This document shows, piece after piece, positions 9,744 to 21,350 of a stretch of 52,819 nt of DNA. A program made the position numbers and the translations under genes. The notes below the pieces were generated by a model, which was not told the DNA's origin, made no database searches, and saw only the letters and a list, made by a program, of their open reading frames with translations. Source of the stretch: an uncultured Bacteroidota bacterium (GTDB lineage Bacteria > Bacteroidota > Bacteroidia > Flavobacteriales > Flavobacteriaceae); NCBI GenBank assembly GCA_902635895.1, contig CACPPV010000008.1, positions 1 to 52,819 on the forward strand. The letters run 5' to 3'. Numbering within the stretch: the first letter of the stretch is position 1; each line of letters opens with the position of its first letter.

Positions 9744-12700
9744 TTAATTTTTAACGAATTTATAAATCTTTGTCTTTTTAATATTTTTTCCCAGAATCGT
9801 ATTTATTTCAATGACGTAGACACCAGAAGTTAAACTGCTTAGATCAAGTTGTCTAAATCTTTCAATTGAGTCAAAAGACTCTTCGTGTACCATTACTCCA
9901 ATAGTGTTGTATATTTTTACATCAATTATATTTAAATCATTTACAATTGAACCTAATATATTTAAGTTATTTTTAGTAGGATTTGGATATACCTTTAAAA
10001 TCTCATTTTCTTCATCAAAGAAACTTTCGTCTTTATATTTTGCTATCAGAGGCAATCCATCTGGTGTTGCTGCTTTAATATCAGATATTTCGTATTCTTT
10101 GAGCTTTTTATCAACATAGCTTAATAAAACATTAGAATAATCTGCAATTGACTGATTATCATTTGAATATATTATATATGTAATATTATTATCATCTTCT
10201 TTGAAACTAATTATATTTAGATTTTCATTTAAATCTTTGTTAATTAAATGATCAATTGATTTATTGATAGTAAACTGTAATCCTGAAATAACTTCTTCAC
10301 TTTCAAAATAAACCTTATTTCCACTGTAAATTAATTCCATTTCACCAACTGGGACAATCGAGAAGTAATTAAGATTTCTTACAGGATCAACGCCATATGC
10401 TAAGCCAGTTTCATTAGAATTTAGAATTAAATTAACCACCCCAGAAACATCTAAAACATCTATTACACCATCATTATTTATATCTGATGTAGTATTAATC
10501 CATACAGACACATCATTTCCTAAAATTTTATCTATAATATTTGTAAGATCTAAAATGTTTACTGACTGATCTCCGTTTGAATCCCCTAGTTTAAAATCTG
10601 AGCTAGCCAAAAATTGACGAGGTTTACTAAACTCAGATCCATTAAATGAAGCATCAATAGCTTGAACTGACCAATAATAAACACCGTCAGGTAGACTAAC
10701 TTTCCATTTTAGGTTATGCTCGGCATTTCCTTTTTCGGCTGTTTTCCTTTGTCCATTTGAATTTGAATTAGCAGACATAATCTCTTCTCCGTTTTCAGTT
10801 GTTCCAATTTTTAAGGCATATGTTAATCCCTCAACTGGAGTCAAATCATCGGATGAAGCATTCCAAGAAAATTCAATAACCAAGTTTCCTTCAACTGTTT
10901 GCTCTGACAAAAGGATTTCTGTTGATATTATTTCAGGTACTGACGGTGGCGCATTTTCAACATATGAATTAGAAACAGAAGCTCCACTTCTACTTCCACT
11001 TTGTGGCTCTGAAACAGCTGCTGATTCATTTCTTTTGTTTAGATAGGCTCTAAATATATATTTTGAATTATTCCAAGGATCATAGTTATTACTCAATCCG
11101 TCCTTATCTTCACCAGACAATACAAAGTCTAAATCTCCATCTCCGTCGATATCTCCAAATTCAACACTGGCTTCAATAACATCACTTACATCAAATGCAC
11201 TATCAACATAAGAATTAGTTGCAGAAGTATATTCAGCAAGTTTAGTTACTTTTCCAGATCCTTCTAGCAAACCAGAGTATATTATATCAGTAAATCCATC
11301 ACCATTAAAATCTCCTAAATCTGTTTTTCCGTTTCGCATTCCAGTAAGACCTAAATCAATTCTTGGCCAATTTTCTTTTCCCTCATTCAAATCATTTTTA
11401 TATATTTCAAAGATATCTCCCTGAAGACCAGTCCCTGTAACTGCAGCATCTAAATCTCCATCACTATCAAAATCGATAAAATCAACTGTTCCATCTCTAA
11501 TTGCAGCTATATTATTAGTAGTTTTTTCGAGTTTATAATCTAAACCTGCATTACCAACATTTTTATATATATAAGCCTTCAATCCTTGAGATTCATCAAA
11601 ACCACTTATAAGAATATCTATATCTTGATCATTATCTACATCACCTAGATCGTATGAAGCTCCAGTTAAATCGTCAATTTGTTCAGAAATATCAACTTTT
11701 ACAAATGATCTGTCAGAGTTCATTTCATAAATATAAATTTTAGGTTTTCCAGATGTATTGTCTGCAGTTAGTCCTATTAAAACAACTTCTGACTGACCAT
11801 CATTATTCATATCAATAATTTTGACTTTGCCTTTATAAAGACCTGAATCAATACCTCGTTCTTCCATATTACCAGTCTCACTTCCAAAGTAGACTCTAAG
11901 TTGACTATTATTTGTATTTGCAAATGAATTGATAACAATATCAGATAAACCATCGCTGTTAATATCATCAATATCAATATCAGTGATATTTCTAGAATTT
12001 CTAATATTTCGTGCATAACCATTTCCATCTTCTTGAACTAGTCTAACTCCGTTGTAAGTGTAAACTCTAGTTTCTGATCCATCATTTGTTCCATATATTA
12101 AATCCAAATCATTGTCATTATCGATATCCCCTACTTTCATAACCGGATTCTCATAACTTTGAATTTTTCGATCAACTATTCCTCCTTGATTAAGCAACTT
12201 CCATTCGTATTTCAGAGTATATGAAGATTCATCAGAAAACTCCCCTGCTTTTAATCCACCGTCAATAGCCTGAACTGCAAAGTAATAAGTGCCCGGTTCC
12301 AAACTAGTTTCATATGAATTTGAATAAATTGGAGGCGGAAGAGTAATTAATCTATTACCTGTTTCTAAGTTACTGAACGTATTTGAAAGTTCTGTCCCTC
12401 CTGGTGTTGTTCCTAAACGCAATACATATCCTATATTGTTTGAAAAATCATCGGATGGAGTATCCCAGCTAAATTTAATTTTTCCATTACCTAAGTCTTC
12501 AGCCTTTAGTCCTGTTACTTTGGGTGGGGCTTGATTATCTTTATTTGTAATTTCTGTTTCATAAAGAATAGTTCTAGCAGAACTTGAATCCAAACCAGTT
12601 ATAAAAAGATCTAAATCTCCATCCATATCATAATCTACCCAGTCAGCTGTAGATTCTCTAAGACCTACCAGTTCAATTGAAGACTCAACCCAATTAAATC

Positions 12701-15700
12701 CACCATAACCGTTTGAAATTCCCTCAAATAACTTAGTGACAGGAACTCCATTTTTGTCTTCCCCTGTAAATACTATATCATCTAATCCATTATTATCGTA
12801 ATCCCCAATAGCTATATCTCCATTTTTTAATTTCAAATTAATACCCCATTGAGAAGCATTAGATTGTATATTGCCATTTCCATCCTCACCCATTTGTATA
12901 TACTCCAAACGTTGTGCGCCAGAGGTTTTGAAAAAACCTAAACTAGAATTTTTATTACCTCCTCCATCATTATACCAAGGATTGTATTCAGATCTAAAAA
13001 ATGAATTAATATTAATACCACCTGGAAATTTAATATCATTATCTCCATCAAGATCAATATCAACTATTTCTAAAAATCCATTTGATGCTACACTACCATT
13101 AAATTGAGTTTCTTTTACAAAATTATCTTTGCCATTTTCTCTATAATAAATATGAAATACATTGTTGTTTTGGGCATCAATTCCTGATATAGCTAAATCA
13201 ATATCTCCATCATTATCTAAATCACCCCATGCCATTTTGGAGGCAAAAAGCTCAGGTAATCCATAAGTATTTTCTGATCTTTCAAAAAATTGAGCTTTAT
13301 TTTTGCTTATATAAACATTTATTTGAGGTGTTTCATTGTAACCGGAAACTACTAAATCTAAGTATCCATCTTTATTTAAATCAACCCATGAAAGATCGCC
13401 ATCATAAAGATTTACAAAATTTTGGTTCATTCTTGCAAATGATCCATCGTTGTTTCTGTAAATATCATTGAAAGCACCGTCAACATTACTTACTCCCATA
13501 ATTGCAACATCTTTATCTCCATCATTATCAAAATCACCCCAGGAAACAGAACTTTTAGAAAGACCTAAAAAAGGATCATCTTTTTGAACAAGTGAAATAG
13601 TATTGTCTAATAATGATAGGGTGGTTGCATCATTAATTTCAGTAATTACATTAGTTGCTAATAAGCTTGGTGTAACTATAATTGTTTCGTCTCCCTCATC
13701 TACCCTATCCTCAAAACCAGTAATTGTAAAATCTCCTTTAGTTGAACCAGATTTAATCATAATTTCTGGACTTAACTGAACCTTAATAATTCGATGATTA
13801 TTTTCATCTAAAATATTTAAATTATTATCACTATCAATTAGAACATCTTTAGGATAATTAAGTTGATTTAAATTATTTCCACTACCGTTTCCTCCAGCAA
13901 TAACTGTCCTTTTATATTTTCCATCATCAAGTGGAATAAACCTGTAAACTCTATTATCATATAAATCTGTAGAATATATTACCCCAGAATCTTGATCTAC
14001 TTCAATAGACATATAATTTCCGTAATAACTACCATTATCATAATATATTATTTCACCTTCGTTTGCATCAGCCTCCCATTTAACTATTCTTCTATTATCC
14101 CAATCTGAAATAAAAATAGTTCCATTAGAGTCAACAGAAAGATCTGATGGGTATCTAAGCTGATTTAATTCGTTTCCTGGTCCATTTCCTCCAGCTACAA
14201 CGATTCCTTCAGTAGCTCCAGGAGACCATTTAACAATCCTATGATTTTGAGAATCAACAACATACAAATTATCAGAACTATCTAAATAAATTTGTGAGGG
14301 ATAGTACAGTTGGTTTAAATTACTTCCACTATTATTTCCTCCAGCAACAACAGCATCAAATATGTAACTATCACCATTGAGAGTATATTTTAGAACTCTA
14401 TGTTGATGATGTTCTGTTACATATATATATCCATTAGTATCTACTTGAACACCATAAGGACCACTAATTCCAGTAATTACAGCTTCACCTTCACTTGAGC
14501 CTGATTTAATTTTTATTATTCTGTTGTTATCATCACCAACATAAATATTTCCAGAATCGTCATTAGTAAATGATTTTGGTCTAGTTAATTGATTTAACCC
14601 CCATCCTTGACCTTGTCCAAAAAGAAGGGAAGGAACTTCTTTTGAAAAAAATTCAACTGAATAGTCAACATCCAATTTAGATGATCCAGACAAGGAAATA
14701 GGGATTGTAATATCTTTTGAGTGAGATTCGCTAATAGTAGCACTAATTTTAACAGACTCGTGTTCAGCAAAAGAAGTTTTACTGTATTCTACACTATTTA
14801 ATGTTGGGTTATCATCACTTAAAAGATTTAAAGTAGTCTCAGTTTCTGTTGAATTTGCATTAACGATAGTTCCATAAGTAAATATTATAGTTTCTACAGT
14901 TTCAACAGTTGTGTCGTCTAATCCATTTGTAGAAATACTAATGGATCCTTTATTTGAACCTTCTAATATGTTTATTGAATTTGAAGACACTGTATATTCT
15001 GTAGTTTCAGTGGCAGTTCCACTTAAAGTAAAAGGAATTTCAATAGGTCTACCAGCTACAGAGGACATTGAAGCCGTTAAAAGTACATCAGTTGGTGAGT
15101 TTTCATTAATATACGCTGAACTTAGAGAAAATGTAACTGTAGGAGGTTCACTATCGTCAACTATTGTGACGTTATATGGGTCAGAATATGAGCTTGTTGC
15201 ATTTGTAGGCGATGTGCTTGGAGTTACAATAATTGTTTCGTCAAACTCGTAAGAAGAATCATTAATTGAAGTAAATTTAATATCAGAGGATATAGACCCA
15301 GCTTTAATTACAATTTTAGAATTTAAATCAACTTTTTGTATTCGATGATTATTTCGGTCTGCAACATATAAATTTCCATCTGAACCAACTAAAGCTGCCC
15401 AAGGAGAATTTAATTGGTTCATATTATTTCCATTACCATTCCCACCAGCTATAACTGTTCCTGAACTTTTACCAGGAATCCACTTAATAATTCTATGGTT
15501 TTCAGAATCAGTTATAAACATAACTCCATCAGAATTTAAGTCTACTCCTCTTGGATATCTAAGCTCACTTAATCCATTTCCATAATTACCACCAGCAATA
15601 ATAACACCTTCACTTGAATTTGGAGCCCATCTCATTATACGATAGTTACTTTCGTCAGCAACATAAATATTATTTGAACTATCTAATGAAACATCGTATG

Positions 15701-18700
15701 GATAATTTAACTGATTTAATGAGTTCCCCCGACCATTTCCTCCAGCAACAACTATACCTTCACTAGAACCTTTAGGCCATTTCATAATACGGTGATTCTC
15801 ACGATCGGTTACATAGACATTTTCTGAATCATCAACATAAATACCAAATGGTCTATTTAATTGATTTAAATTACTTCCGGAATTATTTCCACCAGCTACA
15901 ACACTTGGAGTGTAAGAACCATCTGATAGAGTATATTTTAGAACTCTATTTGAATAATAATCTGACACATAAATATTATCTAAATCGTCTACATGAATAC
16001 CCAAAGTATAAATTCCTGTAATAATACTAATTCCTTCACTTGCACCTGGCGTCCATTTCATTATTCGACTATTATCAGTATCGGCAACATATATATTTCC
16101 TGAACTGTCCATTGCTAAACCATGTGGATATCTTAGCTGATTTGCTGAGTTCCCATTACCATTTCCTCCTGCAACAGTTGTGACTAATCCTTTGTCAGTA
16201 AACTCTGTTGTATAATCAACGTTAATTGTTGCTGTTCCAGTAATTGTTAGTGGAATAGTTATATCTTTTGAATGTAGAGCACTTATGGTTGCAGTTAGTG
16301 TACTAACTCCCCCATTTTCTGCAATTGATCCGGTATCTAAGGTAAAGCTATCAACAGTAGGTTTATCGTCACTTAAAAGATTTAATGTGACATCAGTTTC
16401 AGTAGTTGTAGCGTTTACTAGCGTTCCAAAAGTTAAAATTATGGTTTCAATAGACTCTACATCACTATCGTCTAAACCATTTGTCGATATAGTAACTGTT
16501 CCAGTTGTTAATCCTGCAGGTATTGTTATTGGGCTTGAAGACACTGTGTATTCAGTAGTTTCAGTCGCTGTGCCACCAACTGTATATGGTATCTCAATTG
16601 ACTTTCCACTAACTATATTCAAAGTAGCAGTTAAAGTAACAACTGAAGATGAATTTTCATCAATACTTGGTGAGCTTAAAGAAAAAGAGACAGTTGGAGC
16701 ATCATCATCATCGTTGATAGTTATTGTTTTGGCATCAGTTATTGAACTAGTAGCATTAGAAACAGATGTGCTTGGAGTTACTATGATAGTTTCGTCGTCC
16801 TCATCAGAACTGTCTAAATTTGACTTAAATGATGCTGTTCCTGTTGTTGAACCAGCAGAAACAACAATTTCAGGACTTAGTTGGAGTTTTTCAATTCTTT
16901 GATTTTGTCTATCAGCAACATAAATATTGTCAAATTCGTCAATATAAATTCCATTAGGATAATTAATATTTCCATTATTAAATTCAGAACTCAAATCAGA
17001 ATAAGATGAATTAGAATAGGTTCCATTTGAAAAAGAATACTTACGAATATTTTGATTGTAATGTTGAACAACATAAAGATTCTTATTAGAATCAAATTTA
17101 ATTTCTCTAGGTTGGTGCACATAACCAAATAAATCAACACCAACGTTAGAGTTAGGAGCCCATTTAACTATTCGGTTATTATCAGAATCAGAAACATATA
17201 TATTTCCAGAGGAATCTAAATTAACACTACGTGGGTATCTTAATTGATTTAATGCATTTCCTTCATTATTTCCTCCCGCAACTAGAACGCCTTGACTAGC
17301 TCCACTAGACCATTTCACAATTCTGTGGTTATAAGTGTCTGCTACATAAAGAGTTTCTGAACTATCTAAATAAATTCCCCATGGTCTATTTAACTGATTT
17401 AAGGAATTTCCAGAGTTATTTCCACCAGCTACAACGCTTTGAGTATAGGAACCGTTTGATAGAGTGTATTTTAAAACACGATGTCCATTATAATCTGAAA
17501 CATAAATATTTCCTGAATTATTAACATGAATTGCCATTGGATATACACCTGTAATAATAACTTCTCCCTTGGTTGCACCTGGGGCCCATTTCATTATTCG
17601 CGAATTATCAGTGTCGGCAACGTATATATTACCGGAACTGTCCATGGTAATGCCTCTTGGGTATCTAAACTGATTTAATGAATTCCCTTCACCATTTCCT
17701 CCAGCAACAGTACTAGCTCCTCTTGAAGCAAATCCAATTGAATAATCTGAATCCTTTTGTGCAGTACCAGTAAGAACTAATGGAATTATTACATCCTTTG
17801 AATGAACAGCACTAATGGTAGCGGTTATTGTACTCGTACTTCCATCTTCATCGATCGTTTCACTATCTAAACTAATGCTTTCAACAGTTGGTTTATCATC
17901 ACTCAAAAGATTTAAAGTGACATCGGTTTCAGTAGTTGTAGCATTTACTAAGGTTCCAAAAGTTAATATTATAGTTTCTATAGGTTCTACATCTGTATCG
18001 TCTAGACCGGTTGTAGATATAGTCACAGTTCCAGTTGTTGATCCTGCAGGTATTGTTATTGGACTATTTGAAACCGTAAATTCAGTTGTCTCAGTCGCAG
18101 TTCCACCAACAGTGAAAGGAATCTTAATTTCTCTTCCACTAGGTTCGTTTAAAGTAGCGGTTAAAGTAACATCAGTTGAGGAATCCTCATCTATGTTTGG
18201 TGAACTAAATGCAAAAGAAACAGTTGACGCAACATCGTCATCAGTGATGGTTATTGTTTTGACGTCGGTTATTGAACTAGTTGCATTAGAAACAGTTGTG
18301 CTTGGAGTTACTATAATGGTTTCGTCATCTTCATCAGAAAGATCTGCTAAAGATCTAAATTTAATAGCTCCCGTACTTGATCCTGCTACAATCTCAATTT
18401 CTGGTTTAATTTGTTGTTTTATTATACGATGATTATTAGTATCAGCTATATAAATATTTCCATTATCATCAACAAAAAATCCATTAGGTCTATTTAATTC
18501 ATTTAATGCACTTCCACTTCCATTTCCTCCAGCTATTACACTCTGAGTATAAGAACCGTTTAAAAGACTATGTTTTACAACTTTACTATGACCATTAAGT
18601 ACTGTGTAAATGTTATCAAATGAATCTATATAAATACCCACTGGAGAAGCTATAGATAGAGATAAACCATCTAATATTTTTGTTCCCTCTGATGAACTTG

Positions 18701-21350
18701 GGGACCATTTCATTATTCGCGAATTACCAGTGTCGGCAACGTATATATTTCCAGAGGAATCTAAAGAAACTCCACGAGGATAACTTAACTGATTTAATGC
18801 ACTTCCATTTCCATTTCCTCCTGCAACAACTAAACCTTCTGATGATCCTGGCTCCCATTTTACGACTCTATGATTATATGTATCAGCTATATAAATATTA
18901 CCAGAATTGTCAACATGAATACCTCCATTTGGATGATTAAGTTGATTAAGTGACTCTCCGTATTGTCCAGTACCAGCTACAATACTTTCTGTGTAAGAAC
19001 CACCTGATAGAGTATATTTTAGAACTCTATGTCTACTATAATCAACAACATAAATATTCTCAGAATTATCAACATGAATTCCTTTTGGATAAACATTTGA
19101 AATAATAACAATTCCTTCAATTGCACCTGGAAGCCATTTTACAATACGATTATTTTGATAATCAGAAACATAAATATTGCCAGAAGAATCAATAGTAATA
19201 TCATCAGGACTATGAAGTTGATTTAAAGCATTTCCATAGCCATTTCCTCCTGCCAAAACAGAAGCTCCTTTCGAGGAAAACTCAGTTTCGTAATCTTGAT
19301 CTAATGTGGCTGTACCTGTAATAGTTAACGGTATAATAACATTTCTTGAATGAACTTCGCTTAAAGTAGCTGTTATCGTGCTGGTGCTTCCGTTCTCTTC
19401 AATTGTCGTTGCGTTTATTACAAGACTATCAACTGTTGGTTTGTCATCACTTAATAGATTCAAGGTAACATCGGTCTCAGTAGATGTTACGTTAACTAAA
19501 GTTCCAAAAGTTAAAATAATGGTTTCAATAGGTTCAACATCTGAGTCGTCTAAACCGTTTGTGGATATGGTCATAGTTCCAGTTGTAGATCCCGCTGGTA
19601 TTGTTATTGGACTTGAGGAAACTGTAAATTCAGTGTTTTCAGTAGCTGTACCTCCAACAGTGTATGGAATCTCAATAGATTTACCACTAAGTCGTGAAAG
19701 AGTTGCAGTTAATGTAACATTTGATGAGGAATTTTCATTAATAGTTGGAAAACTTAAAGCAAAAGATACTGACGGAGGATCGTCATTATCTGTAATTGTT
19801 ATTGTAGAAGCATCTGTAATGGTGCTTGTGGCGTTGGTAACAGATGTGCTTGGGGTAATAATAATAGTCTCATCCTCTTCATCGTCAAAATCACTCAAGG
19901 ATGAAAAGGTTACAGTACCTGTTGTATCTCCAGATGCTATTTTTATCTCAGGATTTACTGTAAGTTTTTGGATTCGATTATTGTCATTGTCAGCTACATA
20001 AACATCACCACTATTACTAACATGTACAAACCATGGGAATTTTAGGCTAGATTCTGAGCTACCTTGGCTACCACTAGTGCCTATAATATTTAAATAGGAC
20101 GATTTTCCTTTAAGGTATTTTCTAACAACATGAGAATGGTGTTGTACTACATAAACATTGTCCAAATCATCTATCTCAACAGACATCGGATAATATATAT
20201 ATCCATAAATCGAGGAACCTTCATTTTCTCCCGGTATCCATTTCATGACTCGTTGGTTATTCCAATCTGCTATGTATAGGTTTCCAGAGCTATCAACAGC
20301 AACGTCTCTTGGATAATTTAACGTACTGTCATTTCCTTGTGCAACAATAACACCTTCAGTTGCACCTGGAATCCATTTCATAATTCTGTTGTTAGAGGCA
20401 TCAGCAATATATATATTACCTGAACTATCTAAATCAATTCCTTTGGGATTATTTAATTGATTAAGTGCATTTCCTCCACCATTTCCTCCAGCCACTGTGG
20501 ATGCCGAATAAGAACCGTCAACAAGTGAATATTTAATAACAGAGTTACCACTAACAACATAAATATTACCAGAGTTATCTACATGTAAAGCTTCAAGATC
20601 AGAAATTGATGATATTAATTCAACTCCCTGTGATGCATTAAACTCCCACTTAACAATACGACCATTATTATGGTCAGCAATGTAAATGTTTCCAATATTA
20701 TCTGAGTGAACATCATAAGGGTTGTCCAATTGGTTTAATGCATTTCCTTCGCCGTTTCCTCCAGCAACGGTTTTAACACCCTTTGTTGCAAAATCTGTTG
20801 AATAGTCCTCCAAAGATGCAGTTCCCGAAATAGTTAGAGGAATTATTACGTCCTCAGAATGAGCTGTGCTTAATGTAGCTGTAAGAGTACTGGTTGCTCC
20901 TGCTTCATTTATAGTTGTTTCATCTAAACTAATGCTAGAAACTTTGGCTTTAACAGTGATTGTTCCAACCATGCCAGCATGAGCAGAACATTGATAATAA
21001 TATGTCCCAGAAGCTGTTGGGGTCCAAACCACATCACCACTTTCAGCTCCATTATTGGTCACTCCAGAGGCTTGATTATCAGTTCCAGTTCCAGATTGTG
21101 TTTTAATATAAAAAGGGTGTCCACTAGCATTAACAGAAAATGTAATGGCATCACCAACTATAAAAGTAAGTGATGGATCATCTCCAGAAACCGAACCGTT
21201 TAAATCTGTTCCAGAAAGAGTATAATTAGAGCTATCTGATGCCGTAACATTTATAGAATAGCCTGCTGATAATGGATTAATTAAATCGTTTGAAAAGGAA
21301 AGGTTAAAAAATAATAATCCTATTAAAAACTGAAATTTAAAAATTTTCAC
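9744..21350 (-). CDS. Giant T9SS-secreted multidomain protein (cupredoxin, Calx-beta/NHL repeats, FG-GAP, dockerin)
   Basis: One uninterrupted 3868-residue frame. Order: signal peptide (about 1-20); cupredoxin domain (28-134) with ligands H78, C121, H124, M127; five tandem units (137-2584); FG-GAP/VCBS block 1 (2585-2935, six Ca-type DxDxDG repeats); FnIII-like domain (2937-3050); FG-GAP block 2 (3050-3440, seven repeats); FnIII-like domain (3467-3581); dockerin-like pair (3587-3644); a beta region that may be cohesin-like (3655-3780); type A T9SS sorting domain (3787-3868, starting VYPNPTKNN). Each unit holds a Calx-beta domain apparently split by a six-blade NHL propeller; units 1-4 also hold an intact Calx-beta domain. 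The likely role is a cell-surface or secreted adhesin or binding protein. It lies 71 bases after hisIE, on the same strand. Ligand unknown. Confidence 0.93.
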   Translation of the reverse strand: MKIFKFQFLIGLLFFNLSFSNDLINPLSAGYSINVTASDSSNYTLSGTDLNGSVSGDDPSLTFIVGDAITFSVNASGHPFYIKTQSGTGTDNQASGVTNNGAESGDVVWTPTASGTYYYQCSAHAGMVGTITVKAKVSSISLDETTINEAGATSTLTATLSTAHSEDVIIPLTISGTASLEDYSTDFATKGVKTVAGGNGEGNALNQLDNPYDVHSDNIGNIYIADHNNGRIVKWEFNASQGVELISSISDLEALHVDNSGNIYVVSGNSVIKYSLVDGSYSASTVAGGNGGGNALNQLNNPKGIDLDSSGNIYIADASNNRIMKWIPGATEGVIVAQGNDSTLNYPRDVAVDSSGNLYIADWNNQRVMKWIPGENEGSSIYGYIYYPMSVEIDDLDNVYVVQHHSHVVRKYLKGKSSYLNIIGTSGSQGSSESSLKFPWFVHVSNSGDVYVADNDNNRIQKLTVNPEIKIASGDTTGTVTFSSLSDFDDEEDETIIITPSTSVTNATSTITDASTITITDNDDPPSVSFALSFPTINENSSSNVTLTATLSRLSGKSIEIPYTVGGTATENTEFTVSSSPITIPAGSTTGTMTISTNGLDDSDVEPIETIILTFGTLVNVTSTETDVTLNLLSDDKPTVDSLVINATTIEENGSTSTITATLSEVHSRNVIIPLTITGTATLDQDYETEFSSKGASVLAGGNGYGNALNQLHSPDDITIDSSGNIYVSDYQNNRIVKWLPGAIEGIVIISNVYPKGIHVDNSENIYVVDYSRHRVLKYTLSGGSYTESIVAGTGQYGESLNQLNHPNGGIHVDNSGNIYIADTYNHRVVKWEPGSSEGLVVAGGNGNGSALNQLSYPRGVSLDSSGNIYVADTGNSRIMKWSPSSSEGTKILDGLSLSIASPVGIYIDSFDNIYTVLNGHSKVVKHSLLNGSYTQSVIAGGNGSGSALNELNRPNGFFVDDNGNIYIADTNNHRIIKQQIKPEIEIVAGSSTGAIKFRSLADLSDEDDETIIVTPSTTVSNATSSITDVKTITITDDDVASTVSFAFSSPNIDEDSSTDVTLTATLNEPSGREIKIPFTVGGTATETTEFTVSNSPITIPAGSTTGTVTISTTGLDDTDVEPIETIILTFGTLVNATTTETDVTLNLLSDDKPTVESISLDSETIDEDGSTSTITATISAVHSKDVIIPLVLTGTAQKDSDYSIGFASRGASTVAGGNGEGNSLNQFRYPRGITMDSSGNIYVADTDNSRIMKWAPGATKGEVIITGVYPMAIHVNNSGNIYVSDYNGHRVLKYTLSNGSYTQSVVAGGNNSGNSLNQLNRPWGIYLDSSETLYVADTYNHRIVKWSSGASQGVLVAGGNNEGNALNQLRYPRSVNLDSSGNIYVSDSDNNRIVKWAPNSNVGVDLFGYVHQPREIKFDSNKNLYVVQHYNQNIRKYSFSNGTYSNSSYSDLSSEFNNGNINYPNGIYIDEFDNIYVADRQNQRIEKLQLSPEIVVSAGSTTGTASFKSNLDSSDEDDETIIVTPSTSVSNATSSITDAKTITINDDDDAPTVSFSLSSPSIDENSSSVVTLTATLNIVSGKSIEIPYTVGGTATETTEYTVSSSPITIPAGLTTGTVTISTNGLDDSDVESIETIILTFGTLVNATTTETDVTLNLLSDDKPTVDSFTLDTGSIAENGGVSTLTATISALHSKDITIPLTITGTATINVDYTTEFTDKGLVTTVAGGNGNGNSANQLRYPHGLAMDSSGNIYVADTDNSRIMKWTPGASEGISIITGIYTLGIHVDDLDNIYVSDYYSNRVLKYTLSDGSYTPSVVAGGNNSGSNLNQLNRPFGIYVDDSENVYVTDRENHRIMKWPKGSSEGIVVAGGNGRGNSLNQLNYPYDVSLDSSNNIYVADESNYRIMRWAPNSSEGVIIAGGNYGNGLSELRYPRGVDLNSDGVMFITDSENHRIIKWIPGKSSGTVIAGGNGNGNNMNQLNSPWAALVGSDGNLYVADRNNHRIQKVDLNSKIVIKAGSISSDIKFTSINDSSYEFDETIIVTPSTSPTNATSSYSDPYNVTIVDDSEPPTVTFSLSSAYINENSPTDVLLTASMSSVAGRPIEIPFTLSGTATETTEYTVSSNSINILEGSNKGSISISTNGLDDTTVETVETIIFTYGTIVNANSTETETTLNLLSDDNPTLNSVEYSKTSFAEHESVKISATISESHSKDITIPISLSGSSKLDVDYSVEFFSKEVPSLLFGQGQGWGLNQLTRPKSFTNDDSGNIYVGDDNNRIIKIKSGSSEGEAVITGISGPYGVQVDTNGYIYVTEHHQHRVLKYTLNGDSYIFDAVVAGGNNSGSNLNQLYYPSQIYLDSSDNLYVVDSQNHRIVKWSPGATEGIVVAGGNGPGNELNQLRYPSDLSVDSNGTIFISDWDNRRIVKWEADANEGEIIYYDNGSYYGNYMSIEVDQDSGVIYSTDLYDNRVYRFIPLDDGKYKRTVIAGGNGSGNNLNQLNYPKDVLIDSDNNLNILDENNHRIIKVQLSPEIMIKSGSTKGDFTITGFEDRVDEGDETIIVTPSLLATNVITEINDATTLSLLDNTISLVQKDDPFLGLSKSSVSWGDFDNDGDKDVAIMGVSNVDGAFNDIYRNNDGSFARMNQNFVNLYDGDLSWVDLNKDGYLDLVVSGYNETPQINVYISKNKAQFFERSENTYGLPELFASKMAWGDLDNDGDIDLAISGIDAQNNNVFHIYYRENGKDNFVKETQFNGSVASNGFLEIVDIDLDGDNDIKFPGGININSFFRSEYNPWYNDGGGNKNSSLGFFKTSGAQRLEYIQMGEDGNGNIQSNASQWGINLKLKNGDIAIGDYDNNGLDDIVFTGEDKNGVPVTKLFEGISNGYGGFNWVESSIELVGLRESTADWVDYDMDGDLDLFITGLDSSSARTILYETEITNKDNQAPPKVTGLKAEDLGNGKIKFSWDTPSDDFSNNIGYVLRLGTTPGGTELSNTFSNLETGNRLITLPPPIYSNSYETSLEPGTYYFAVQAIDGGLKAGEFSDESSYTLKYEWKLLNQGGIVDRKIQSYENPVMKVGDIDNDNDLDLIYGTNDGSETRVYTYNGVRLVQEDGNGYARNIRNSRNITDIDIDDINSDGLSDIVINSFANTNNSQLRVYFGSETGNMEERGIDSGLYKGKVKIIDMNNDGQSEVVLIGLTADNTSGKPKIYIYEMNSDRSFVKVDISEQIDDLTGASYDLGDVDNDQDIDILISGFDESQGLKAYIYKNVGNAGLDYKLEKTTNNIAAIRDGTVDFIDFDSDGDLDAAVTGTGLQGDIFEIYKNDLNEGKENWPRIDLGLTGMRNGKTDLGDFNGDGFTDIIYSGLLEGSGKVTKLAEYTSATNSYVDSAFDVSDVIEASVEFGDIDGDGDLDFVLSGEDKDGLSNNYDPWNNSKYIFRAYLNKRNESAAVSEPQSGSRSGASVSNSYVENAPPSVPEIISTEILLSEQTVEGNLVIEFSWNASSDDLTPVEGLTYALKIGTTENGEEIMSANSNSNGQRKTAEKGNAEHNLKWKVSLPDGVYYWSVQAIDASFNGSEFSKPRQFLASSDFKLGDSNGDQSVNILDLTNIIDKILGNDVSVWINTTSDINNDGVIDVLDVSGVVNLILNSNETGLAYGVDPVRNLNYFSIVPVGEMELIYSGNKVYFESEEVISGLQFTINKSIDHLINKDLNENLNIISFKEDDNNITYIIYSNDNQSIADYSNVLLSYVDKKLKEYEISDIKAATPDGLPLIAKYKDESFFDEENEILKVYPNPTKNNLNILGSIVNDLNIIDVKIYNTIGVMVHEESFDSIERFRQLDLSSLTSGVYVIEINTILGKNIKKTKIYKFVKN
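13599..14807 (-). repeat. Giant-protein repeat unit 5, lacking the intact Calx-beta domain (residues 2182-2584)
   Basis: The unit is 403 codons. It keeps the split Calx-beta domain and six NHL blades (about residues 2237-2524) but stops after the second half of that Calx-beta domain and runs straight into the first FG-GAP repeat. It is therefore about 110 codons shorter than units 2-4. Confidence 0.82.
14808..16361 (-). repeat. Giant-protein repeat unit 4 (residues 1664-2181)
   Basis: The unit is 518 codons, with six NHL blades (about residues 1721-2007) inside a split Calx-beta domain and then an intact Calx-beta domain. The intact domain is more diverged than in units 2 and 3 (GTIVNANSTETETTLNL). 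Confidence 0.85.
16362..17891 (-). repeat. Giant-protein repeat unit 3 (residues 1154-1663)
   Basis: The unit is 510 codons with the same order as unit 2 and six NHL blades (about residues 1212-1491). Its intact Calx-beta domain (about 1551-1663) is very similar to that of unit 2, including GGTATETTE and the TFGTLVNATTTETDVTLNL stretch, which suggests recent duplication or gene conversion. Confidence 0.85.
17892..19439 (-). repeat. Giant-protein repeat unit 2 (residues 638-1153)
   Basis: The unit is 516 codons and starts at the boundary motif SDDKPTVDS. It repeats the order split Calx-beta, six NHL blades (about residues 696-977), Calx-beta second half, intact Calx-beta domain. The propeller entry motif AGGNG-GNALNQL is shared with the other units. 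Confidence 0.85.
19440..20942 (-). repeat. Giant-protein repeat unit 1 (residues 137-637)
   Basis: This unit is 501 codons. It holds the first half of a Calx-beta domain (ending near DYSTDFATKG), a six-blade NHL propeller (about residues 189-462), the second half of the same Calx-beta domain (from PEIKIASGDTTG), and an intact second Calx-beta domain (about 526-637). NHL blades show the pattern GNIYIAD-NNRI-KW. It is the most diverged at the start, lacking the DDKPTV link seen at later boundaries. Confidence 0.85.

Follow-up and report, generated by a model that had tools for sequence, protein, structure and literature searches.

Six-blade NHL propellers nested within Calx-beta domains of a giant flavobacterial protein with a type IX sorting domain

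INTRODUCTION

In the portions of the RTX adhesin literature that deal with them, ligand-binding domains are described as projecting from "split domains," which are discontinuous immunoglobulin (Ig)-like domains (PMC12077191, PMC10865825). According to the same portions of PMC12077191, some of these guests bind glycans or cells, and one example, the 5047-residue RTX adhesin of A. hydrophila, carries three ligand-binding domains, namely, a carbohydrate-binding module (CBM), an RTX roll, and a vWFA domain. Here, we describe a giant open reading frame (ORF) of an uncultured Bacteroidota bacterium of the family Flavobacteriaceae in which NHL beta-propellers are nested within Calx-beta domains and whose product ends in a sorting domain of the type IX secretion system (T9SS). 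It lies on contig CACPPV010000008.1 of assembly GCA_902635895.1; this entire contig of 52,819 nucleotides was analyzed and is referred to as the window.

RESULTS

The ORF contains five split units, at residues 137 to 526, 640 to 1042, 1156 to 1552, 1666 to 2070, and 2184 to 2585 (positions 13596 to 20942, minus strand). In each of them, an N-terminal Calx-beta half (A half, 55 to 56 residues) is followed by an NHL segment of 275 to 289 residues and then by a C-terminal Calx-beta half (B half, 58 to 60 residues), and the units alternate with four uninterrupted Calx-beta copies of 110 residues each. The host halves align end to end with these intact copies across the split point, which lies between host strands C and D and at the same place in five of five units; where intact copy 2 reads TEFTVSNSPITIPAGS, split copy 2 has TEFSSKG, 287 residues, and PEIEIVAGS. 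A first-pass annotation had anticipated the nesting, the constant split point, and the role of the intact copies as the uninterrupted version of the region, all of which we can confirm, with the lower end of the array moving from 13599 to 13596. Its border motifs hold more loosely: the pattern DYxxxFx(x)KG is found in units 1, 2, and 4 and is not kept in unit 3 (...FASRG) or unit 5 (...FFSKE), and the B half opens with PEI in four of the units and with SKI in unit 4.

By motif, each NHL segment holds six blades, giving the 30 blades in five six-blade propellers that had been proposed. The Pfam NHL family scores 462.9 bits on the whole protein, and 22 stretches pass an E value of 1 individually, so that 8 of the 30 blades fail alone. 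The fivefold nesting is real and not a product of chance: models of the A half and B half found 56 and 116 domains above 8 bits, respectively, in 823 ORFs, which include overlapping copies of the window, the source of the models, and none after shuffling of the same 823 ORFs.

Unit 2, the sole unit modeled, was predicted together with its intact neighbor from an alignment of 12 sequences (predicted local distance difference test [pLDDT], 91.1; predicted template modeling score, 0.77). Between residues 56 and 341 of the model, DSSP assigns 24 strands, corresponding to six blades of four. The N-terminal side provides the first strand of the propeller (56 to 62), to which the last blade adds three; the ring would therefore close with both chain ends in one blade. 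The propeller matched Pizza6, the PknD sensor (1rwl), and the TRIM71 NHL domain in Foldseek, with TM scores by target of 0.88, 0.83, and 0.84, respectively. The model thus supports, for unit 2, the closed six-blade propeller between the host halves that the motif count suggests for all five units.

The predicted strands of the split host (3 to 6, 10 to 12, 17 to 23, and 32 to 39 before the propeller and 345 to 348, 354 to 361, 371 to 377, and 392 to 397 after it) follow the same order as those of the intact copy (403 to 409, 413 to 415, 422 to 428, 436 to 444 with a break at 439, 459 to 461, 467 to 473, 486 to 492, and 504 to 510). Each has one short extra element, at 48 to 52 in the split host and at 498 to 500 in the intact copy. 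Confidence is 88 to 95 in the A half and 83 to 96 in the B half. By sequence and by the strands that DSSP assigns in the model, the guest stands between the two halves of one Ig-like sandwich, and strand order, confidence, and homology together suggest that these halves pack against each other as a single domain.

Several comparisons support a Calx-beta identity of the host. Eight of the 10 solved folds nearest to the modeled intact copy (pLDDT, 80.8) are calcium-binding domains of NCX1 or CALX, with TM scores of about 0.6 to 0.68, and integrin beta4 follows at rank 43. A profile built from 17 hosts, of which 14 are split and 3 lack a guest, matched NCX1 with a whole-sequence E value of 2.2e-8, for which both Calx-beta domains are counted, and with 1.7e-6 for the single-domain structure 2fws. 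This alignment crosses the split point, pairing GTAT..DY and eIpaG of the hosts with GTANAGSDYEFT and EGTVVFKPG of NCX1, and the profile also aligns with an acidic stretch of NCX1. A guest-free homolog from the window's family (G035) exceeds the Pfam cut-off for Calx-beta with 37.5 bits. The same is true of 2 of the 10 joined hosts from the homologous loci L123 and L129, both from L123; for the host of NHL2, which reached 35.0 bits joined, the halves alone scored 16.4 and 15.9 bits, and for the other, which reached 30.6 joined, they scored 19.5 bits and none.

A number of observations weigh against this assignment. Pfam does not list Calx-beta (PF03160) for the whole protein, even at an E value of 1, and the gathering cut-off of 27 bits is reached by none of the five joined window hosts or the one intact copy tested. 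Only joined unit 4 lists the family at all, at 15.0 bits, and LapA outscores it in each of the five (14.1 to 20.0 bits, also below cut-off). Eight of the 10 joined hosts of L123 and L129 likewise fall under the Calx-beta cut-off, and two tested from G297, another genus of the window's family, list LapA (17.1 and 11.9 bits, below cut-off) and no Calx-beta. The Foldseek E values of the intact copy are about 4e-3 to 1e-2, no match of any kind reaching 0.001; the NCX1 alignment spans profile positions 33 to 95 only, without strands A and B; and a PDB sequence search that used only the five intact-copy rows, including one fragment, gave nothing significant. Despite the Pfam scores, the fold and profile comparisons support the Calx-beta assignment that the first-pass annotation had made. 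Six acidic columns (E13, D46, D351, E355, D357, and E358) are invariant in all five split hosts; they may be calcium ligands and, by binding calcium, could stiffen the rod.

The same nesting recurs in other genomes. In Flavobacterium weaverense DSM 19727, one intact copy lies between two nested units whose propellers show six and five blades with the blade model, and the C-terminal region beyond them resembles that of the window protein. In G006, from the window's genus, a single A-NHL-B unit (4 blades scored) occurs in the 1646 residues present on the contig; the half models find no other Calx-beta there, so its halves have no other partner. G297 has, by eye, three nested units and two intact copies; with the blade model, a single array of at least four blades is detected. 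In a first search of 100 genomes, including the window's own, 35 matched the five-unit profile, and a single match from position 10 or earlier to position 394 or later was found in the window's own genome and in G006, G010, G013, G015, and G016, all of the same genus. At an E value of 1e-15, matches occurred in at least 30 of 397 family genomes and at least 35 of 395 phylum genomes (own genome included), these being lower bounds since up to four candidates were scored per genome. Long matches outside the genus in G243 and G724 were rejected as Calx-beta nesting on reading. In L205, L206, and L207, partial reading or scanning showed no nesting at Calx-beta or He_PIG, and L204 yielded no four-blade array. 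Among viral contigs, a lectin-unit search found none, and a search with profile A1 gave 48 loci, proteins being read in part for five of them; the half models found nothing above 8 bits in 302 ORFs from those loci. As far as sampled, the Calx-beta form looks confined to the window's family and F. weaverense. NHL matches with in-frame stops in three genomes of the same genus (G014, contig C31, 746 to 1663; G019, C35, 13 to 384; and G007, C17, 8087 to 8380) are possibly decayed relatives.

A sister family alternates two kinds of guest. The window's own genome encodes, on contig C4, a paralog of 3160 residues that is cut by the contig end (L129, 3913 to 13392, plus strand), and its same-genus relatives reach 5099 residues. 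With borders set by eye, hosts of C-type lectins and hosts of NHL propellers alternate strictly in L121, L123, and L129, with four pairs in each of the first two and three in L129 before the contig ends; L122, L125, L127, and L128 show the same alternation by eye. At the 19 host-host junctions, no residue intervenes in 14, one in 2, and 9 to 32 in the 3 that follow the first pair. Pfam Lectin_C matches four stretches each in L123 and L129. The propeller occupies loop C-D and, by sequence, the lectin loop B-C. Calx-beta is not listed for one of five joined lectin hosts and scores 16.5 to 23.3 bits, under the cut-off, in the other four; the match is confined to the part after the guest in three of them and extends over the whole length in CTL3 of L123. 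The second lectin keeps EPN...WND in all six proteins that include this position, the other lectin positions being without the motif. We take EPN...WND to be a carbohydrate-binding motif, pointing to carbohydrate binding by this guest.

On a tree of 36 hosts, the NHL, lectin, and empty classes need two changes, the minimum possible; shuffled class labels needed a mean of 14.7, and none of 200 shuffles was as low as the observed value. Hosts at equal positions along the chain cluster together irrespective of genome, with starred support in seven of eight cases, and the guest order should therefore be older than the species split. Support for the lectin group (79/65) and the empty group (84/81) is moderate, and the NHL hosts fall into two groups. 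That the empty hosts recently lost a lectin guest is not favored, as they form a group of their own at that moderate support.

NHL propellers are also nested in He_PIG domains. A survey of 80 of 329 confirmed loci yielded 114 NHL arrays of at least four blades. He_PIG motifs flank seven of these arrays, in six loci, on both sides and a further seven on one side; of the latter, those in L003 and, twice, in L039 are nested on reading, those in L015 and L019 run to the ORF end, and those in L035 and L073 are not nested. Two further arrays, in L064, are nested by eye. All 10 joined hosts (L003, L015, L019, L039, L051, two in L059, two in L064, and L187) pass the He_PIG cut-off of 24 bits, with 29.2 to 65.0; eight cover the profile from position 1 to 3 through position 95 to 96, L019 and L039 being given without the first strand. 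Scored alone, the halves match complementary parts of the profile: 34.2 and 28.3 bits in L051 (65.0 joined), 22.8 and 21.4 in L003 (43.8), 30.6 and 24.9 in L059 (57.5), and 13.7 and 26.6 in L064 (36.0). The split point is constant across the nested loci, which belong to Campylobacterota (L003, L015, L019, L039, L051, and L059), Roseivirga (L064), and the window's own family (L187, genome G328).

Other insertions were noted in passing. In L059 (3934 to 7209), a different propeller-like repeat stands at the same He_PIG split point, at residues of about 135 to 510, with no four-blade NHL array; the He_PIG socket may take unrelated propellers. L193 and L200 have NHL arrays that may lie inside a He_PIG-like host with an earlier split point; the gain from joining is small, the C half of L193 scoring 45.8 bits alone versus 46.8 joined. 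In L208 (G724; ORF from 520, plus strand), NHL-like repeats interrupt, by eye, another Ig-like domain at residues of about 375 to 645, with borders ...DYYIQQITT and ...TNRVPVVVKN versus ...IYYASQTIGGIESNRLPIRVKR in an uninterrupted neighbor. In the collagen-like proteins of L140 and L144, both on viral contigs, an NHL array splits what looks by eye like a single domain (GGLTLQ... and ...TYAGTPFTGTL) and is possibly nested.

The features of the ORF are listed in Table 1. Its sorting domain exceeds the cut-offs of both Pfam and NCBIfam, as expected of a T9SS type A cargo, and genome-wide we found one PorP-family match and four sorting-tail matches. A second T9SS sorting tail (412 to 624) stands at the C-terminal end of a plus-strand ORF at 1 to 639, which is cut by the window start. 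At the N terminus, what is otherwise an adhesive-looking fiber begins with a domain that resembles cupredoxins, carries C-x2-H-x2-M, and scores below cut-off in Pfam.

Table 1. Features of the giant ORF, with positions in the window (aa, amino acid residues)
Feature	Position	Strand	Basis and remarks
Whole ORF, 3868 aa	9744..21350	-	GTG start, then signal-peptide-like N terminus (by eye)
Cupredoxin-like N-terminal domain (about aa 30-134), C-x2-H-x2-M at aa 121	20949..21263	-	Pfam Copper-bind 61-134, 18.2 bits, below cut-off of 21.2; N-terminal limit by eye
Unit 1 Calx-beta A half (aa 137-191)	20778..20942	-	
Unit 1 NHL propeller, six blades (aa 192-466)	19953..20777	-	
Unit 1 Calx-beta B half (aa 467-526)	19773..19952	-	
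Intact Calx-beta 1 (aa 527-636)	19443..19772	-	
Unit 2 Calx-beta A half (aa 640-695)	19266..19433	-	Sequence, model
Unit 2 NHL propeller, six blades (aa 696-982)	18405..19265	-	Sequence, model, Foldseek
Unit 2 Calx-beta B half (aa 983-1042)	18225..18404	-	Sequence, model
Intact Calx-beta 2 (aa 1043-1152)	17895..18224	-	Sequence, model, Foldseek
Unit 3 Calx-beta A half (aa 1156-1211)	17718..17885	-	
Unit 3 NHL propeller, six blades (aa 1212-1492)	16875..17717	-	
Unit 3 Calx-beta B half (aa 1493-1552)	16695..16874	-	
Intact Calx-beta 3 (aa 1553-1662)	16365..16694	-	
Unit 4 Calx-beta A half (aa 1666-1721)	16188..16355	-	
Unit 4 NHL propeller, six blades (aa 1722-2010)	15321..16187	-	
Unit 4 Calx-beta B half (aa 2011-2070)	15141..15320	-	
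Intact Calx-beta 4 (aa 2071-2180)	14811..15140	-	
Unit 5 Calx-beta A half (aa 2184-2238)	14637..14801	-	
Unit 5 NHL propeller, six blades (aa 2239-2527)	13770..14636	-	
Unit 5 Calx-beta B half (aa 2528-2585), no intact copy after it	13596..13769	-	
FG-GAP/VCBS-like repeats and Ig/Fn3-like stretches (about aa 2600-3560)	10671..13553	-	Pfam FG-GAP_3, 10 stretches, best 2657-2720; outer limits and Ig/Fn3 by eye
Dockerin type I-like segment (aa 3588-3642)	10425..10589	-	Pfam 23.3 bits, cut-off 22.9
T9SS C-terminal sorting domain (aa 3787-3862)	9765..9992	-	Pfam Por_Secre_tail 44.1 bits, cut-off 27; NCBIfam TIGR04183 28.7, cut-off 23

DISCUSSION

We favor, with some reservation, a model in which the protein is a T9SS-secreted surface or extracellular fiber of Calx-beta sandwiches, with the propellers as sideways binding heads for multivalent adhesion. 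In this model, the C-D hairpin loop of every second sandwich would be replaced by a closed six-blade NHL propeller. Because the first and last strands of the propeller would belong to one blade, its ends would leave side by side, so that a hairpin loop could accommodate the propeller while the host still closes. The host chain would form a continuous rod from which the five propellers project sideways, and load along the rod would bypass these heads, which could provide multivalent adhesion to a glycan, a protein, or a particle. By analogy with the guests of RTX split domains, and given the lectin guests of the sister family, multivalent adhesion seems the most likely role. Two points tell against it: NHL propellers also serve as scaffolds or enzymes, and the genes around the ORF (histidine synthesis, DUF2911, and an amidohydrolase) give no pointer to adhesion.

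The nesting itself might be questioned in two ways. The two halves could be separate small folds flanking a tandem propeller, their likeness to Calx-beta being coincidental, as the low Pfam scores of the window hosts and a model judged by strand order and confidence would allow. We consider this very improbable, given the strand-by-strand match of the halves to the intact copy, their high confidence, a match to NCX1 that runs across the split, two joined hosts of relatives that exceed a cut-off which their halves do not, and the single-unit protein of G006. That metagenome assembly created the repeat array is scarcely credible: although the genome is 68% complete, in 50 contigs, one of which is the entire window, the units have diverged to 41 to 53% identity with the first one, and the same nesting occurs in the named strain F. 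weaverense DSM 19727.

Alternative functions deserve more weight. Catalytic or metal-handling propellers, of a lactonase- or lyase-like kind, would make the protein a surface enzyme array on a stalk instead of an adhesin, and the SGL family does score above its cut-off (71.3 bits versus 26.3), with SdiA-regulated below its own; streptogramin lyase 2qc5 appears at rank 49 of the best 50 fold matches, and the N-terminal cupredoxin-like domain would fit as well. The top structural matches, however, are designed, sensor, or TRIM NHL propellers and no enzymes, and the sister family has C-type lectins at alternate positions, which leaves this possibility unlikely in our view. Still less probable is that the propellers are plain spacers or products of drift, tolerated as insertions without any special display role. 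The variable number of NHL units, with five in the window protein against three in G297, two in F. weaverense, and one in G006, leaves some room for this explanation, as do the moderate support for the lectin and empty groups and the scatter of NHL hosts over two groups; against it, host class and position are kept between genomes, with only two changes on the tree.

The arrangement reaches beyond the window: He_PIG domains also act as hosts, C-type lectins also occur as guests, and further taxa are involved. The evidence seems to us about evenly balanced on whether the propeller-in-sandwich is a general, repeatedly evolved design of secreted bacterial giants, in which a socket accepts exchangeable guests (an NHL propeller, another propeller-like repeat, or a C-type lectin) and different loops serve different guests. 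Such a design would embrace the Calx-beta/NHL form of the window, the eight-domain chain of lectins and propellers in the same genus, and the He_PIG/NHL form of Campylobacterota and Roseivirga.

Domain annotation renders the window protein as consecutive NHL repeats, leaving the hosts unrecognized; split-domain surface proteins outside the RTX adhesins may accordingly be overlooked. If the heads bind ligands, split hosts would allow novel binding modules of T9SS cargo to be found from sequence alone, and they would serve as a natural template for the display of propellers on a rod. In NCBIfam, the protein exceeds the cut-off of the scytonemin protein ScyF (361.4 versus 350), probably because of its many NHL repeats, and is likely to be misnamed by automatic annotation.

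Among known propellers, the PknD sensor, TRIM71, and Pizza6 share the fold and blade number of those described here. In TRIM71, the filamin and NHL domains are consecutive, whereas the propeller of the window protein lies within the sandwich. The NCX/CALX exchangers and integrin beta4 have the host fold and the acidic motif, and their Calx-beta domains are not known to carry a nested propeller; the loop that holds the insertion in the window hosts adjoins the calcium sites of these exchangers. Prolyl oligopeptidase has a propeller inserted in an alpha/beta hydrolase, in a single copy and as part of a catalytic protein. Ligand-binding domains of RTX split domains are reportedly treated by Graham et al. 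(2024, Proteins 92:933). As far as the relevant portions of PMC10172136 describe it, the crassvirus muzzle protein gp44 likewise combines a propeller with Ig-like domains by insertion, but in reverse: the propeller of this virus tail protein has seven blades, and the Ig-like domains are placed between or into them.

That the nesting is undescribed, as the first-pass annotation supposed, does not hold for the general split-domain principle, which is published for RTX adhesins. It may still hold for propeller guests: in titles and abstract beginnings of the open-license papers listed, no description of a propeller nested in a Calx-beta, He_PIG, or Ig-like domain turned up, nor did a paper on alternating guests in two loops or on many repeats. 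The main text of PMC12077191 does not contain the words propeller, C-type lectin, or Calx, nor does PMC10865825 contain propeller or Calx. In the parts concerned, PMC9531527 merely lists Calx-beta and NHL as enriched in sponge microbiomes, and PMC8877628 has a table naming Calx-beta and He_PIG, without NHL, split, or nested. The novelty would thus lie in the propeller as guest, in the alternation of two guests between two loops, and in the large number of repeats.

The closest parallel remains the RTX split domain, with which the window protein shares a giant bacterial beta-sandwich fiber, a guest emerging from a discontinuous Ig-like domain, and, in the model proposed here, adjacent guest termini and off-axis projection. 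RTX adhesins carry a type I secretion signal and an RTX beta-roll, neither of which marks the window protein; no RTX family is among the 12 Pfam matches of the ORF up to an E value of 1, which include the T9SS tail instead. The window protein further differs in its Calx-beta host, its six-blade NHL guest, and its five repeats, and the sister family differs in placing two alternating guests in two loops.
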